Positions 8,423-16,904 of a stretch of DNA of 21,545 nt are shown here, piece after piece. The translations under genes were made by a program, and so were the position numbers. The notes beneath the pieces are model-generated. The model made no database searches, was not told the DNA's origin, and saw nothing but the letters and a program-made list of their open reading frames with translations. This DNA comes from a virus, in the IMG/VR virus record IMGVR_UViG_3300046319_000177, positions 1 through 21,545 of that record. One strand, 5' to 3'. Every line of letters starts with the position of its first letter. Positions within the stretch are counted from its first letter, which is position 1.

Positions 8423-8532
8423 AGATTGATAGAGCTCAGATGATACATTGTTGTGTATTTACTAGATTTAGTTGACCCCAGTCTTGTCCCTGCTGTATAT
8501 AATAACCTGTACACCAAGGAATTATATACATT
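8423..8532. promoter_or_regulatory. Divergent promoter region: leftward tail operon and rightward gp55 operon
   Basis: The only intergenic stretch between the leftward tail operon and gp55. Leftward, AGTAAATA at 8463-8456 is a degenerate late octamer (6 of 8) with a suitable leader of about 28 nt. Rightward, TTGACC (8472-8477) and TATATA/TATAAT (8496-8503) resemble a host sigma-70 promoter, with an 18-nt spacer if TATATA is taken or 20 nt if TATAAT is taken. A sigma-70 promoter would fit, because gp55 must be made before late transcription. AAGGA at 8516-8520 is the gp55 ribosome binding site, 12 nt from its ATG. Confidence 0.4.
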
Positions 8533-9180
8533 ATGGCAACTAAGAAAATCAAGCAACCAAAACAACCCACACCACCATTAGAAGGCATCGATGACGACAC
8601 AAGTATACTGGCTATCGAGCTGCTTGAAGAGGAGATGCTTTCTAGCGATTTGATCACAACTGGGTCAGTTGTTGGTGATACCGTTGCTATGCCAGCAGAA
8701 AAGGTTAAGCGTCCACAAGCATATGTTAACAACAAGGCGCTTCTAGAAGAATTTGACATCAGCATTAAACAAGATCAGATGACACCAAAGTTAGCAAAGA
8801 TGGTAATGATGATATGTCAACGTTATGCGAGAAAAGTTAACTTTAGTAGCTACACATATAATGAAGATATGCAGGGGTTTGCTATGATGAATCTCGTAAA
8901 ATCGTGGCGCAGTTTTAATCCTGAGAAATCTCAGAACCCTTTTGCTTATTTTACAACTTGTGTAACCAATTCTTTCTTGCAATATTTAAACCACGAACGC
9001 AAGCATAGAAACATTCGTGACGCACTGTTGGTTGACAACGGTTTGGATCCATCATATACTTTCACTGAAGCATATAATACCTCAGAGTCTCAATCTGAGG
9101 TTGTTTCCCAACAACCTGAACCACCAACACTCAACGATGTCGTCGTCAAAAAACCCAAAAAAACAAAAACAATTAAATAA
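8533..9180 (+). CDS. 55: Late-transcription sigma factor gp55
   Basis: 215 residues; T4 gp55 has 185. The core (about 64-165) contains YVNNKALLEEF, a helical segment, and FNPEKSQNPFAYFTT (128-142), the hallmark of T4 gp55. It is followed by NSFLQYLNHERKHRNIRDALL, the region-2-like helix that binds core polymerase and melts the promoter. The N-terminal 60 residues are Lys/Pro-rich then acidic and are an extension relative to T4. The C-terminal 30 residues are Pro/Gln-rich and end in a Lys-rich tail (KKPKKTKTIK). With core RNA polymerase it should read the TATAAATA promoters of this window. It leads the rightward gene group with gp47 and gp46. Confidence 0.94.
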   Translation: MATKKIKQPKQPTPPLEGIDDDTSILAIELLEEEMLSSDLITTGSVVGDTVAMPAEKVKRPQAYVNNKALLEEFDISIKQDQMTPKLAKMVMMICQRYARKVNFSSYTYNEDMQGFAMMNLVKSWRSFNPEKSQNPFAYFTTCVTNSFLQYLNHERKHRNIRDALLVDNGLDPSYTFTEAYNTSESQSEVVSQQPEPPTLNDVVVKKPKKTKTIK

Positions 9181-11996: not shown

Positions 11997-12494
11997 TCAC
12001 GCAAAAAACTCTGTCAACGGCAGAGTGAGCAAATCATCGAGAGTGTATACAAACATATCCTTGTACTTGAACCTACAAGGAATTCCCTCGTGGTGTTTTG
12101 TGACTAGTACAATTTCTGGAACATTGTTATACTTGATAATTAAGAGAGGCGCCTTGCCTGTCTGAGAACTGTCTTGAGTTACTTGAGCTAACCACCCATC
12201 CCACTGCTTAATCTCTCCACTAAACAACACACCCATAGATGGTGGAGTTTTGTAGTGTTTACACTCAATAGAGAATAAAAATGAAACAGGGCAAATCAAA
12301 TCCCCAAAAGTAGCCATGCTGGTGTCGTGAGTCCCGACGCGCTGTTTATTAGAACCACCGAAGAAACTACCTGAATCTGGATTTCGGCGAAACCCCTTCT
12401 CCATTTGCAGATGCTCGGAGAATTGCTCTGATAGTCGGTTTGCGATTCTCCGCTCGAAGGTAGATCCCTTATTTTTACTATTAATTTTTGTCAT
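11997..12494 (-). CDS. PD-(D/E)XK nuclease, possible Holliday-junction resolvase
   Basis: 165 residues. The N-terminus KNKGSTFERRIANRLSE (E14) and the core GDLICP (D65) followed by SIECK (E77, K79) form a PD-(D/E)XK active site. The overall length and the order of the E, D and ExK residues resemble archaeal Hjc-type and phage resolvase-like nucleases. T4 resolves junctions with endonuclease VII (gp49), an unrelated fold, so this may be its functional replacement; that is inference. It faces gp46 tail to tail. GGTGAG lies 4 nt before the ATG, a usable ribosome binding site, and a degenerate late octamer ACTAAATA is at 12526-12519. Other PD-(D/E)XK DNA-processing roles are possible. Confidence 0.72.
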   Translation of the reverse strand: MTKINSKNKGSTFERRIANRLSEQFSEHLQMEKGFRRNPDSGSFFGGSNKQRVGTHDTSMATFGDLICPVSFLFSIECKHYKTPPSMGVLFSGEIKQWDGWLAQVTQDSSQTGKAPLLIIKYNNVPEIVLVTKHHEGIPCRFKYKDMFVYTLDDLLTLPLTEFFA

Positions 12495-12525
12495 AACTCA
12501 CCGTGGGTATTGTAGTGTGATATTT

Positions 12526-12565
12526 AGTTAAGTAGCTCGACACGCGACCCTAGAGCTACTTAACT
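12526..12565. repeat. 13-bp perfect stem-loop upstream of a late promoter
   Basis: Arms AGTTAAGTAGCTC (12526-12538) and its exact reverse complement (12553-12565) enclose a 14-nt loop. It lies between the nuclease gene start and the TATAAATA at 12590, 24 bp before it. No T-tract follows, so a classical terminator is not certain. Confidence 0.75.
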
Positions 12566-12589: not shown

Positions 12590-12597
12590 TATAAATA
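12590..12597 (+). promoter_or_regulatory. T4-type late promoter (TATAAATA) far upstream of gp25
   Basis: Exact late octamer on the plus strand. The nearest downstream gene in that direction is gp25 at 13155, so a transcript starting near 12603 would carry a leader of about 550 nt. It is downstream of a 13-bp stem-loop, repeating the hairpin-promoter pairing seen at 13755 and 16866. Confidence 0.6.
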
Positions 12598-13003: not shown

Positions 13004-13040
13004 TTTTGTAATTTCACGCCTTAGTAATTGAATTACAAAA
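13004..13040. repeat. 10-bp perfect stem-loop upstream of gp25
   Basis: TTTTGTAATT (13004-13013) pairs with AATTACAAAA (13031-13040) across a 17-nt loop, and an A9 tract overlaps its right end (13037-13045). Low GC content makes it weak as RNA. Confidence 0.55.
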
Positions 13041-13050
13041 AAAAATTGAC

Positions 13051-13067
13051 GTAGTGCTAACGAAGTC
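13051..13067. repeat. Left arm of a 17-bp inverted repeat flanking gp25
   Basis: GTAGTGCTAACGAAGTC is the exact reverse complement of 13613-13629. The sub-motif AACGAAGT recurs directly at 13084-13091 and inverted at 13614-13621. Confidence 0.9.
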
Positions 13068-13154: not shown

Positions 13155-13526
13155 ATGCGTAGTTTATACCGAGGATTCTCGCTGCACGAGTTCCGCCAAA
13201 AGCACAGCACTAAGTTAGTAGATCTCGACTTAGTTAAAATGAATTTGCTTACTCACATCTATACCAGCAAAGGTGAGAGATTAAAAATGACAAATTTTGG
13301 AACAAGGATTCCAGGTTTGTTATTTGAACCAATGACAAAGGAAGCAATAGATATAGTGCGCGAGGACTTGACTTATGTATGCAACTACGACCCGCGTGTA
13401 GAACTCAAAAATTTGTCTGTCGTTCCAAATTGGAATGCGCATGCAATCATTGCAACAATAGAGTTGAACTACATTGAATTAAATCTAATTGATGTACTTT
13501 CTCTGCACTTGGAATTTGGTGGTTAA
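13155..13526 (+). CDS. 25: gp25-like baseplate wedge protein
   Basis: 123 residues; T4 gp25 has 132. The C-terminal half has the family pattern: FGTRIPGLLFEPM (48-60), a helix, YDPRVEL (78-84; the conserved EPR motif with D for E), then NLSVVPNW, IIATIELNYIELN and LIDVLSLHLEF, the final strands. gp25 sits in the baseplate inner core and starts sheath assembly. AGGA lies 11 nt before the ATG, a long but workable spacing. In T4, gp25 and gp53 are neighbours and gp6 follows; here gp25 is followed by gp6, so part of the wedge gene order is kept, but gp53 has moved to the opposite strand. It is surrounded by repeats on both sides. Confidence 0.88.
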   Translation: MRSLYRGFSLHEFRQKHSTKLVDLDLVKMNLLTHIYTSKGERLKMTNFGTRIPGLLFEPMTKEAIDIVREDLTYVCNYDPRVELKNLSVVPNWNAHAIIATIELNYIELNLIDVLSLHLEFGG

Positions 13527-13601: not shown

Positions 13602-13643
13602 AGATAGATGAGGACTTCGTTAGCACTACATCCTCATCTATCT
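13602..13643. repeat. 13-bp perfect stem-loop whose loop matches upstream DNA
   Basis: AGATAGATGAGGA (13602-13614) pairs with 13631-13643. The 16-nt loop forms most of the right arm of the 17-bp inverted repeat, so in RNA the loop could pair with 13051-13067. No T-tract follows directly. Confidence 0.85.
13613..13629. repeat. Right arm of the 17-bp inverted repeat flanking gp25
   Basis: GACTTCGTTAGCACTAC, exact reverse complement of 13051-13067. The two arms are 545 bp apart with gp25 between them. Confidence 0.9.
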
Positions 13644-13648
13644 TGCGT

Positions 13649-13725
13649 TTTAAGTTACATTGAAATTCGGTTTTACTTCACTACGTTACGCAACCCCAAA
13701 GTTCAATGTAACTTAAAGTTTTTTT
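13649..13725 (+). terminator. Candidate rho-independent terminator after gp25
   Basis: A 16-bp perfect stem (13649-13664 with 13702-13717; core TTAAGTTACATTGAA) encloses a 37-nt loop and is followed within two bases by seven T residues (13719-13725). The stem is AT-rich and the loop large, so efficiency is uncertain, but the arrangement fits an end for gp25 transcripts. Confidence 0.55.
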
Positions 13726-13738
13726 AGCCCTCAGGGAT

Positions 13739-13775
13739 ATGAGTGATTTGTTTGGATAAATAACAAATCACTCAT
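13739..13775 (+). promoter_or_regulatory. Stem-loop with late-promoter octamer (GATAAATA) in its loop
   Basis: Arms ATGAGTGATTTGTT (13739-13752) and the exact complement (13762-13775) surround a 9-nt loop. GATAAATA (13755-13762) fits the late octamer except for its first base, a position that varies in T4-like phages. Transcription from it would start near 13768, within the right arm, giving a gp6 leader of about 55 nt that no longer contains the hairpin. Confidence 0.6.
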
Positions 13776-13822
13776 GCCGCGCACATGTCAAATAAGTACG
13801 GCGGAACTTACATATTACCTAA

Positions 13823-16800
13823 ATGCCAGCTGCTCCAAATACTAACTTTGCCGAACAATGGCAGTCAACATACGATGTTTTAAAGAAGTCAATTTCTTAT
13901 AAACAGTTTGATTATGATGAAATCAAACAAGTTCTCATAAGCTATCTCCGAACATATCACCCAGAGTATTTCAATAACCTTATTGAAACGGATGAAATGT
14001 TACCCTTAATAGAGTTGTTCGCATATGTGGGGGAACTGTTTGCGTATAGGGTAGATGTAAACACACAAGAACACATATTGGGAAATGTTACCCGCAAGTC
14101 CTCAGCCCTGCAACTAGCAGCGATGATGGGGTACACGCCCTCTCGCCGGACCCCAGCAACTGGTCTGGTTAAAATAGATACCCTAACTACAACTGAATCA
14201 ATTATCGACCAACAGGGTGTGGATTTAAAAAATAAAGCTGTTAAATGGAACGATCAAACCAATTCAAATTGGCAGCTTCAGTTTGAATTAATCCTCAACA
14301 AAATTGTCAATAATAAGACAGGAATCATAAACGACTCGGATAAGCTGAATCTCGATGGTACGATAGTTGAGAAGTTCTCACTTAATGTTGCGCCAACGAC
14401 GAATGGTGTGTACAGGTATACAGTCAACCTCGATAAGCTAAATTTACCGATGGAGCTCGTTCCGGTAAAATTAACTGAGAGCGCCATCGCTGAGTATCCA
14501 GCATCGGGGGATAGATCACTCGATATTCTTAGACTCAATGACGGATTTGGAGTAGGGTCAAGAAACACTGGATACTTCTTTCTAACCAAGCAAGGGCACT
14601 TATCACCAACCCCCTTGTTCTTTGACGGCGCGACAGTAAACCACACAGAGGCACTGCGGATCAACGGTATCAATGACACAGATGTCTGGCTCGCGGAATT
14701 GACCTCGAGTGGCGATTTCGTTCGCCATTGGACTCAAGTTGATAATATTGCATACAATAGCCCAACAAACGATCGCAATGTGTTTCAAGTTGAGACTCTT
14801 GAGGGTGATGGGATTCAATTGGTGTTTGGAGATGGTAACTACTCTAATGTACCCACTGGCCATTTTACTCTCTGGACTCGTGCTAGTGAGGCTCTCACAC
14901 AATCAATCCCCGTGTCGGCGATACAGAAGCGAGTGATGATACTTGAGTACCAAGACTTGTATGGTAACAAACAACGTTGTACCGTACAATTCTCTCTAAC
15001 AACTCCAATTGAGAATCAATCTGAGTCTGAATCGATTAGAAAACTTCAGCGAGCAGTTCCTGGTGTGTACTATACTCAGGACAGGATGGTTAATGCTCAA
15101 GATCACGAGGGGTACCTACTCCAAGATCCATCCATCGTAAAAATTAAGGCGGTCAATCGAAGCTTCACAGGTCAGTCGAAATATTCAGGCTGGAATGATG
15201 GTAGTGAAGTGTACGAAAATGTAAAAATATTCAGCAATGATGGTGCATTCTACTTCAAGCCAACCATCAAACTAAAGGAAGTTCTCAATCCCAATAACTC
15301 AATCCCAACAATTGTGTTCGCCCTCACACATGTGGAGCCATTACTTGCTGCACCTGACCTCTGGTTGGGTATTGTGCAGAGAAATGCGGCGAATGTGCAG
15401 GTTAGGACGTACCTTACGATACCAGAGCGCTCTCAGCTTGTCAACGCTCTTGATTTGCTGACTAGTGGCGGTACAGTCGGCTTCAAGTGGGACATTATGA
15501 CAAACACTTGGATAATCGGATTGAACCTGACTGTAACTCCTGATATTACAATCAATGTAATGACATCGACGCGGGGTTGGGTAATAACCTCATATACCGC
15601 CGCGACTATATTCTCCAGCGCAACAACTAAGTTTTGGAACTATTCGCTGGGATCTCAATTAGATTATGATACCCTATTACCAACCGCCGATCGAATTACA
15701 ATCCTGAAAGCTAACATCAACAAAACAAAAAATGGTGTGCTTACAGACGATGTTGTGTTTAAGGTCGCTGGCAACGTGGTCACATATTCTTCACTACCAA
15801 ATCAAACTACCGTAGATCTATCAAAAGTAGAACTAATTGGTTCCGATTCGAATGGTGATGGGTTCCCAGAAGATCTTGCAGCTGAGTCACTACTAAACTC
15901 AATATACACCTTCGCCGTACCGCAGAATACCGCTATTGATTTAACGCTACCCGACAAGTATCTGCGGGGATTTGGTGACATCAGTGCAGTGTATGGAAAC
16001 TCTGCCTCGGTGATATGGGCAGAAGATCCAACTGGGTTGTCTGGTCAATTGGCTAATGTGATCAAAATTGTCAACACAGGGCCCAACACTCAGATTACGG
16101 TAGTTGTACGCGACTTTGTATACTTGTCTCGTCCTAATACCAACTCAGATTTTGTCATTCAAGAGGATACGGATTCTGTCAGATTAAATTACGCTTATGA
16201 CTTCGCTCATAACCTATACATTCGTTACCCTGGACGAAAAGATTTGAACTTTTTATGGGAGCACTACACAGACTCGTTCAACCTGGTAGATCCGGTGCAC
16301 ACCAACGTCAATGATTTGTACATAATCACCAAGCAGTACTACGTTGATACTCTGAACTGGCTCCAATCAGACGCTCCTCAGCCAGAAGTACCTAGTTACT
16401 TCCAACTCAAGACGTCGTATTCTGCCTACCTGCAGAATGCGATGATGTCTGATGAGGTGATACTTCGCCCCGGTAAATTCAAAGTACTGTACGGCAAAAA
16501 TGCTCCACCACAAAGCCGTGCAAAAATTCAACTCGTTGTCAACAACCTATCAACATCTTCGGACATGGTTAAGACTGATGTGATATCACTCATTCGTCAA
16601 TACTTCGACATTTCCAACATCGCATTTGGTGATCAATTGTTTTTCTCGAGCCTGGCAGCATATGTTCAGACTAACACCAAATATGACATTCGGTCGATGT
16701 TGTTAGTGCCGCTGTACCCAGAATTTCAATTTGGAGACTTGTACCAGGTGCAAAGTGCTGCTGATGAAATCTTAATTGCAGATGTGTCGGCAGCGGATAT

Positions 16801-16843
16801 TCAAATAGTTGACACACTAACAGCTACAAACCTCAGACAGTAA
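13823..16843 (+). CDS. 6: gp6-like baseplate wedge protein
   Basis: 1006 residues, clearly longer than T4 gp6 (660). The N-terminal 115 residues carry the gp6/gpJ pattern: YDEIKQVLISYL, then MLPLIELFAYVGELFAYRVDV, then a helix and LAAMMGYTPSRR. This is the part that packs wedges together. The middle holds long beta-rich stretches, including segments (about 450-720) with no clear T4 equivalent. The C-terminal part has AKIQLVVNNL and VISLIRQYFDISNIAFGDQLFFSSL, typical of the last gp6 domain. In T4 twelve copies form the ring that joins wedges to the hub. No good ribosome binding site precedes the ATG. It follows gp25 as in T4, and a late octamer lies 60 bp upstream. Confidence 0.86.
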   Translation: MPAAPNTNFAEQWQSTYDVLKKSISYKQFDYDEIKQVLISYLRTYHPEYFNNLIETDEMLPLIELFAYVGELFAYRVDVNTQEHILGNVTRKSSALQLAAMMGYTPSRRTPATGLVKIDTLTTTESIIDQQGVDLKNKAVKWNDQTNSNWQLQFELILNKIVNNKTGIINDSDKLNLDGTIVEKFSLNVAPTTNGVYRYTVNLDKLNLPMELVPVKLTESAIAEYPASGDRSLDILRLNDGFGVGSRNTGYFFLTKQGHLSPTPLFFDGATVNHTEALRINGINDTDVWLAELTSSGDFVRHWTQVDNIAYNSPTNDRNVFQVETLEGDGIQLVFGDGNYSNVPTGHFTLWTRASEALTQSIPVSAIQKRVMILEYQDLYGNKQRCTVQFSLTTPIENQSESESIRKLQRAVPGVYYTQDRMVNAQDHEGYLLQDPSIVKIKAVNRSFTGQSKYSGWNDGSEVYENVKIFSNDGAFYFKPTIKLKEVLNPNNSIPTIVFALTHVEPLLAAPDLWLGIVQRNAANVQVRTYLTIPERSQLVNALDLLTSGGTVGFKWDIMTNTWIIGLNLTVTPDITINVMTSTRGWVITSYTAATIFSSATTKFWNYSLGSQLDYDTLLPTADRITILKANINKTKNGVLTDDVVFKVAGNVVTYSSLPNQTTVDLSKVELIGSDSNGDGFPEDLAAESLLNSIYTFAVPQNTAIDLTLPDKYLRGFGDISAVYGNSASVIWAEDPTGLSGQLANVIKIVNTGPNTQITVVVRDFVYLSRPNTNSDFVIQEDTDSVRLNYAYDFAHNLYIRYPGRKDLNFLWEHYTDSFNLVDPVHTNVNDLYIITKQYYVDTLNWLQSDAPQPEVPSYFQLKTSYSAYLQNAMMSDEVILRPGKFKVLYGKNAPPQSRAKIQLVVNNLSTSSDMVKTDVISLIRQYFDISNIAFGDQLFFSSLAAYVQTNTKYDIRSMLLVPLYPEFQFGDLYQVQSAADEILIADVSAADIQIVDTLTATNLRQ

Positions 16844-16865: not shown

Positions 16866-16873
16866 TATAAATA
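16866..16873 (+). promoter_or_regulatory. T4-type late promoter (TATAAATA) overlapping a terminator arm
   Basis: Exact octamer whose last five bases are also the first bases of the left arm of the hairpin at 16869-16902. By T4 spacing the start point would be near 16879-16880, just past that arm. The leader to the ATG at 16965 would be about 85 nt. Confidence 0.75.
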
Positions 16874-16904
16874 CTACACTCCTTGATCGTGGTGTAGTAT
16901 TTTT
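16869..16904 (+). terminator. Rho-independent terminator after gp6
   Basis: An 11-bp stem (AAATACTACAC 16869-16879, complement 16892-16902) with a 12-nt loop runs into five T residues (16900-16904). It lies 26 bp after the gp6 stop. Only read-through RNA from gp6 would contain both arms. Confidence 0.75.

Follow-up and report, generated by a model that had tools for sequence, protein, structure and literature searches.

A predicted late promoter nested in a perfect inverted repeat upstream of a gp6-like gene, a member of a recurrent hairpin design in uncultured jumbo T4-like phages

The virion RNA polymerase of phage N4 uses hairpin promoters, in which promoter information lies in a DNA hairpin with a short stem and is read by this dedicated polymerase; nothing at the element presented here, at positions 13739 to 13775 of an uncultured phage sequence, shows recognition of hairpin DNA. 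In phage T4, late promoters nested in the 5' arms of translation-masking hairpins are classic cases (PMC3014915, PMC2988022). At T4 e, soc, 49, I-TevI, I-TevII, I-TevIII, and segB and at Aeh1 mobE, as predicted at 13739, the 5' arm is missing from late RNA, so that the hairpin folds only in RNA initiated upstream. Aeromonas phage 25 seg43 has a stable hairpin that lies upstream of, and does not cover, its ribosome-binding site (PMC2988022). Composite early promoter-stem-loop motifs (PeSLs; Arbiol 2010, Comeau 2014) of T4-like phages are described in summary as mediating gene shuffling (PMC4503421).

The DNA analyzed (the window) is the entire 21,545-nucleotide IMG/VR virus record IMGVR_UViG_3300046319_000177, with no longer genome behind the record. 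Its gene content is that of a fragment of a jumbo T4-like phage and includes gp25-like, gp6-like, and other baseplate genes, gp46/gp47-like recombination genes, and a gene for a gp55-like late sigma factor (8533 to 9180, plus strand; phrog_234, 3e-31; phrog_12791, 3e-25; Sigma70_r2), the expected reader of the late promoters of the window. The element lies between genes for a gp25-like baseplate wedge protein (13155 to 13526, plus strand; phrog_261, 4e-16) and a gp6-like baseplate wedge protein (13823 to 16843, plus strand; phrog_10646, 3e-197), the latter being closest among named phages to proteins of Xanthomonas phage XacN1 (35% identity) and Stenotrophomonas phages CM1 and RAS14 (34%). Direct DNA homologs were not found among named phages, and a search of Rfam gave no match. 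IMG/VR relatives were grouped into clade A (near-identical contigs), clade B (gp6 74% identical), and clades C and D (approximately 50%). The element sequence itself is present in just two near-identical contigs, which precludes a covariation test within the clade. Elsewhere in the window, a 10-bp hairpin (TGTATATAAT..ATTATATACA, 8494 to 8530) encloses AAGGA immediately 5' of the start of the gp55-like gene and shares bases with an early-type -10 box, possibly controlling the late sigma gene, and a 14-bp palindrome with A- and T-runs (708 to 736), located between the convergent ends of 376 to 702 and 733 to 1623, has the appearance of a bidirectional terminator.

Positions 13739 to 13775 form a perfect inverted repeat (14/14 bp) in which the left arm, ATGAGTGATTTGTT (13739 to 13752), and the right arm, AACAAATCACTCAT (13762 to 13775), are 100% complementary across the 9-nt loop TGGATAAAT, as the earlier note had read it. 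This repeat is far beyond chance: perfect inverted repeats of at least 13 bp (loop ≤20 nt) occurred four times in the window and not once in 150 dinucleotide shuffles, and the RNA fold of -18.1 kcal/mol corresponded to a z score of -6.2. The octamer GATAAATA (13755 to 13762, plus strand), predicted to be the gp55-type late-promoter -10 box of gp6, is not wholly within the loop, its last base being the first base of the right arm. The absence of a T-tract that the earlier note had reported was confirmed for both arms and both strands, and the stem is A+T-rich, unlike the G+C-rich stem directly followed by a T-tract of an intrinsic terminator.

All 37 nt of the element were identical in a 96 to 98% identical contig. 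In the only divergent strain, all changes in the gp25/gp6 gap lay upstream and the 37 nt and the whole leader were unchanged, a weak comparison with few changes. The hairpin was missing from the gp25/gp6 junction in clade B, which keeps GATAAATA, and in clades C and D; no counterpart of the left arm was found at this junction in the 74% relatives. The hairpin at 13739 is therefore best read as a lineage-specific member of its class. An ancestral right arm, considered because the clade B box is followed by ACTCACGCCG, was dropped because similarity of the leaders was not beyond that of shuffles (91/500). An ATG located 23 nt past the promoter box, a spacing usual in the group, starts a 32-codon frame (13786 to 13884) that overlaps the gp6 start out of frame and was not seen in clade B.

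The octamer at 13755 to 13762 very probably serves as the gp6 late promoter and directs initiation near 13768, both activity and start site being predicted from sequence. Late boxes of T4 span -13 to -6 by convention (PMC2988020), and this rule places +1 at approximately 13768, within the right arm, with the left arm at -29 to -16 and the right arm at -6 to +8. RNA started there would lack the left arm and retain 8 nt of the right arm, so that only read-through RNA could form the hairpin, and folding predicts that late and read-through RNAs differ by the hairpin; the reading of a start inside the right arm, made from the sequence earlier, was thus borne out. As in late promoters, the box is TATAAATA-like, has no -35 box, and lies about one turn upstream of the predicted start, and the phage encodes its own late sigma factor. 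Octamers were not more numerous across the window than expected (5 versus 4.05), with four of the five located in the intergenic 6% of the window and all on the strand of the next gene. GATAAATA was retained at the gp25/gp6 junction in L005, L006, and L007; it is kept in the 74% clade. In a 7-mer enrichment scan of positions 12 to 60 nt upstream of genes in 396 kb of nonredundant sequence of the group, with expectation derived from coding sequence, ATAAATA (30 versus 0.29 expected), CTAAATA (27 versus 0.18), and GTAAATA (14 versus 0.23) were among the most enriched, from which VTAAATA, about 60- to 150-fold enriched directly upstream of genes, was taken as the late core of the group. This enrichment and the gp55 homolog support the proposal that the octamer is a late promoter. 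For phage Aeh1, [a/g]C has been described at -13/-12 (PMC2988020).

A sister element follows gp6. The predicted late promoter of the next gene, TATAAATA (16866 to 16873, plus strand), is overlapped by the left arm of an 11-bp terminator-type hairpin (arms 16869 to 16879 and 16892 to 16902; z, -4.0), the end of which overlaps a T5 tract at 16900 to 16904 (element, 16869 to 16904, plus strand). The start at this site had also been placed in the right arm; the predicted +1 (approximately 16879) is instead the last base of the left arm, and the accompanying claim that only read-through RNA forms the full hairpin stands. Upstream of 13739, a long imperfect hairpin (13649 to 13717) followed by T7 (13719 to 13725) forms an intrinsic terminator (13649 to 13725, plus strand; z, -4.5) that is expected to end the gp25 transcript; in the 96 to 98% relative, changes improve its stem and T5 is kept. 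It is preceded by a 13-bp perfect hairpin without a T-tract between gp25 and gp6 (13602 to 13643, plus strand; z, -6.4). A further 13-bp perfect hairpin (12526 to 12565, plus strand) lies between two divergent late boxes, ACTAAATA (12521 to 12528, minus strand) and TATAAATA (12590 to 12597, plus strand), the latter upstream of gp25 and a possible source of RNA entering 13739. No obvious gene was seen in the approximately 560 nt between this plus-strand box and gp25. With the hairpin at 13004 to 13040, those at 12526 to 12565, 13602 to 13643, and 13649 to 13717 make four between the gp55/gp47/gp46 operon and the late tail genes. This operon, with an early-type promoter upstream of gp55, points toward 13739, with terminators and a convergent gene in between. 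A 20-nt inverted match (95%) was found between 13048 to 13067 and 13613 to 13632, 545 nt apart, the second copy being the loop region of the hairpin at 13602 to 13643. A conserved loop motif of the neighboring hairpins, CTTCGTTA, was rejected as not enriched.

The element at 13739 belongs to a recurrent, group-wide design. With genes called by a simple longest-ORF rule, a perfect stem of at least 8 bp across the predicted start was found for 15 of 83 VTAAATA genes versus about 5 of 187 position-matched controls (P of about 3e-5), and stems with the core in the loop were found for 10/83 versus 2.6/187 (P = 6e-4). Core-in-loop stems of at least 11 bp occurred at 6 of 87 sites and at none of 1,740 shuffled sites. 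The core had been learned on the first contig set, which is the reason that a second set matters; in contigs fetched later and masked for overlap, hairpins of at least 8 bp across +1 were again more frequent than in controls (12/57 versus 2.9/84, P = 0.0013). In T4 itself, hairpins were likewise associated with late cores (9/22 versus 6/97, P = 1e-4), and the same scan recovered the known cases segB, I-TevII, I-TevIII, and gene 49. In the more distant phage RAS14, late cores were not enriched in hairpins. Strict NATAAATA with perfect hairpins gave only 3 to 5 of 39, barely above intergenic background, which was resolved by use of the group core VTAAATA. Many members of the group are terminators fused to a promoter, with a T-tract and RNA-terminator geometry, some mask a start codon, and others are T-less core-in-loop stems of 11 to 18 bp before other genes.

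Comparison across clades suggested persistence of structure rather than of sequence. Across 140 sites, hairpin presence was common to orthologous junctions in 23 pairs versus 7.6 expected (0 of 5,000 label shuffles). At the gp26-like junction, the stems of four clades were CGAAAAACTAGAGGAGT, AAAAGGAGGAGTA, AAATAGGGCAG, and TAACAGCAAA (the last with a short inner stem), always around AGTAAATA. At the gp4-like junction, a terminator whose stem is AACCCCACA or AAATAGCCCC overlaps ACTAAATA. Upstream of the putative prohead-protease-like gene (compare T4 gp21), two clades have terminator-type hairpins and a third has a T-less 16-bp stem with the core in its loop. At the junction after gp6, the terminator-type hairpin of the window corresponds to T-less, core-in-loop stems (8 and 12 bp) in clades C and D, and clade B lacks a hairpin there. 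Thus, at this junction and at that of the prohead-protease-like gene, a hairpin with a T-tract in one clade stands where another clade has a T-less one, which suggests that both forms handle RNA from the upstream gene. Since the compared stems are unrelated sequences, these results concern persistence of structure and not column-by-column covariation; the hairpin structure itself seems to be kept. Arms of different elements share no sequence even within one genome. The claim of the earlier note that the element is part of a recurring system was therefore sustained by octamer-hairpin enrichment over shuffles and control intergenic positions, by out-of-sample replication, and by persistence across clades. 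Its comparison with mobile cassettes was not: neither the stems nor the flanks are related to one another, moved copies were not found, and one element alone lies inside an insert, with a homing endonuclease. A core of the form GTAGT..AAATAC.CTAC was present at two loci in two contigs, all from one sample, and was set aside as too little to indicate a cassette copied between loci.

Other arrangements of promoters and hairpins were observed in the relatives. In contig G005, an 18-bp perfect palindrome at approximately 130162 (TGTACTAAATAGCGGTCA..TGACCGCTATTTAGTACA; L051) carries a late core on each strand and is located upstream of an ortholog of window positions 11997 to 12494. The same contig contains a GIY-YIG gene with TATAAATA and a hairpin over the Shine-Dalgarno sequence and start codon (75740 to 75781, minus strand; L048), which in a jumbo-phage contig is the textbook I-TevI/segB arrangement of T4. 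A 1.67-kb insert in IMGVR_UViG_3300046336_000121 (L037, 15296 to 16965), missing from the 98.7% identical contig G009, contains apparent split-intein halves (..SILDEK|CLVAGTEV.. and ..TLSISGN|CHTDAMI..) flanking a free-standing GIY-YIG endonuclease gene; the late box of this gene, CATAAATA, occupies the loop of an 11-bp hairpin with perfect pairing. An early-type promoter family, TTGACC-N16..19-TATAATAGACCCTAAGAGCAA, was found in L037 to L039 and L042 to L051; its -10 box is sometimes itself palindromic (TTAGGGT ataatag ACCCTAA), with stems of at least 5 bp in 5/26 cases versus 5.5% in shuffles.

The overall explanation proposed here, to which about an even chance is given, is that the predicted gp6 late promoter is nested in a hairpin formed by read-through RNA only, that it is one instance of the recurrent design, and that it serves as a back-up barrier. 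RNA from upstream, whether from the late promoter at 12590 through gp25 or from the gp55/gp47/gp46 operon, would fold the 14-bp hairpin, and RNA from the gp6 promoter would start hairpin-free. In the design as a whole, a late core placed within a junction hairpin, either in its loop or in its left arm, would allow one short sequence to end or structure the incoming RNA and to start the next late RNA. Members with a T-tract would be terminators fused to promoters, and members near the next start codon would mask that start in incoming RNA. Because the terminator at 13649 to 13725 would already end RNA and gp6 is too far away for masking, the hairpin at 13739 would most likely be a back-up barrier on read-through RNA, acting by structure, pausing, or processing, and may be redundant; with the terminator directly upstream, little RNA may reach it. 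We infer this specific role, and action at the RNA level, from the geometry of a conserved class and from the position in the zone that separates the gp55/gp47/gp46 operon from the late tail genes.

The same redundancy would fit a neutral palindrome, that is, an ordinary late promoter beside a functionless, lineage-specific repeat produced by template switching during replication. Such an origin, which would fit the perfect arms if it was recent and also the absence of the hairpin, but not of the promoter, at this junction in the 74% and 50% relatives, is a minor but real possibility; the group-wide enrichment of such nesting and its persistence at other junctions despite different stems argue against it, as do, weakly, the unchanged element and leader in the divergent strain. 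Action in DNA, either by binding a dimeric regulator as its operator or by extruding as a cruciform in which the -10 box is hidden or presented, is unlikely. A repeat that is perfect in DNA and centered on the -10 box would suit it, as would the T-less core-in-loop stems before other genes, but the unrelated arms leave no place for a common sequence-specific protein, including the dimeric DNA-binding protein suggested previously, and the many members with a T-tract and RNA-terminator geometry are unexplained by a role in DNA only. In one highly improbable form of this idea, the extruded palindrome would show an unpaired nontemplate -10 box and help gp55, a minimal sigma factor that opens promoters weakly, to open chosen late promoters, and pairing rather than sequence would be conserved for that reason.

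A translational gate of the T4 e/I-TevI type, in which upstream-initiated RNA masks the gp6 start until hairpin-free late RNA appears, shares its promoter/hairpin topology with T4 e, 49, segB, and I-TevII (PMC3014915, PMC2988022), and GIY-YIG genes of relatives show its classic form. At 13739, the late start is inside the hairpin and the Shine-Dalgarno sequence and start codon are not masked: 47 nt separate the end of the stem from the gp6 ATG, and opening of the start site costs 3.5 kcal/mol in read-through RNA versus 3.1 kcal/mol in late RNA. The same calculation, which ranks e, 49, segB, and I-TevII at the top in T4, gave masking differences of 13 to 16 kcal/mol for T4 gene 49, e, and segB, 8 kcal/mol for I-TevII, and 0.4 kcal/mol for gp6. 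A gate is accordingly quite improbable here, and the suggested shielding of gp6 translation in long transcripts was not upheld. That the hairpin is an intrinsic terminator like the one at 16866 and ends the upstream unit is barely credible; it is stable and terminator-type members are common in the group, but there is no T-run on either strand, the stem is A+T-rich, and a complete terminator lies just upstream.

The element is real, as is the group-wide design, which has clear T4 precedents. If the back-up barrier and its design are as proposed, one very short DNA would separate neighboring late units, with incoming RNA stopped or structured and new RNA unaffected, and the principle of T4 e and I-TevI, by which lysis or selfish genes are gated, would extend to structural genes of the ordinary kind. 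Late promoters of uncultured jumbo phages could then be found by a rule, namely VTAAATA within or adjacent to hairpins. The exchange of stems with pairing kept across clades makes the nested-promoter idea directly testable.

Among described systems, PeSLs, as summarized above, resemble the element in combining a promoter and a stem-loop in one short intergenic unit of T4-like phages; they differ in that the promoter at 13739 is late-type, not early, and is nested inside the stem-loop, and in that neither movement, recurrent mobile copies, nor a shared flank was found. The seg43 hairpin is similar in being very stable, near a start, and not sequestering, but it lies directly next to a ribosome-binding site, that of a homing endonuclease gene, whereas the hairpin at 13739 is 47 nt away, precedes a baseplate gene, and holds a late core. 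Terminator/late-promoter overlaps (at 16866 and at the gp4-like and prohead-protease-like junctions of relatives) have the same nesting, with a T-tract present and the core located in the left arm, unlike the T-less element at 13739. Unlike the hairpins of the gated T4 genes, that at 13739 leaves the gp6 ribosome-binding site uncovered; its stem is perfect and longer, and the loop holds the core. In the relatives, the design stands upstream of structural genes, often as a fusion with a terminator.
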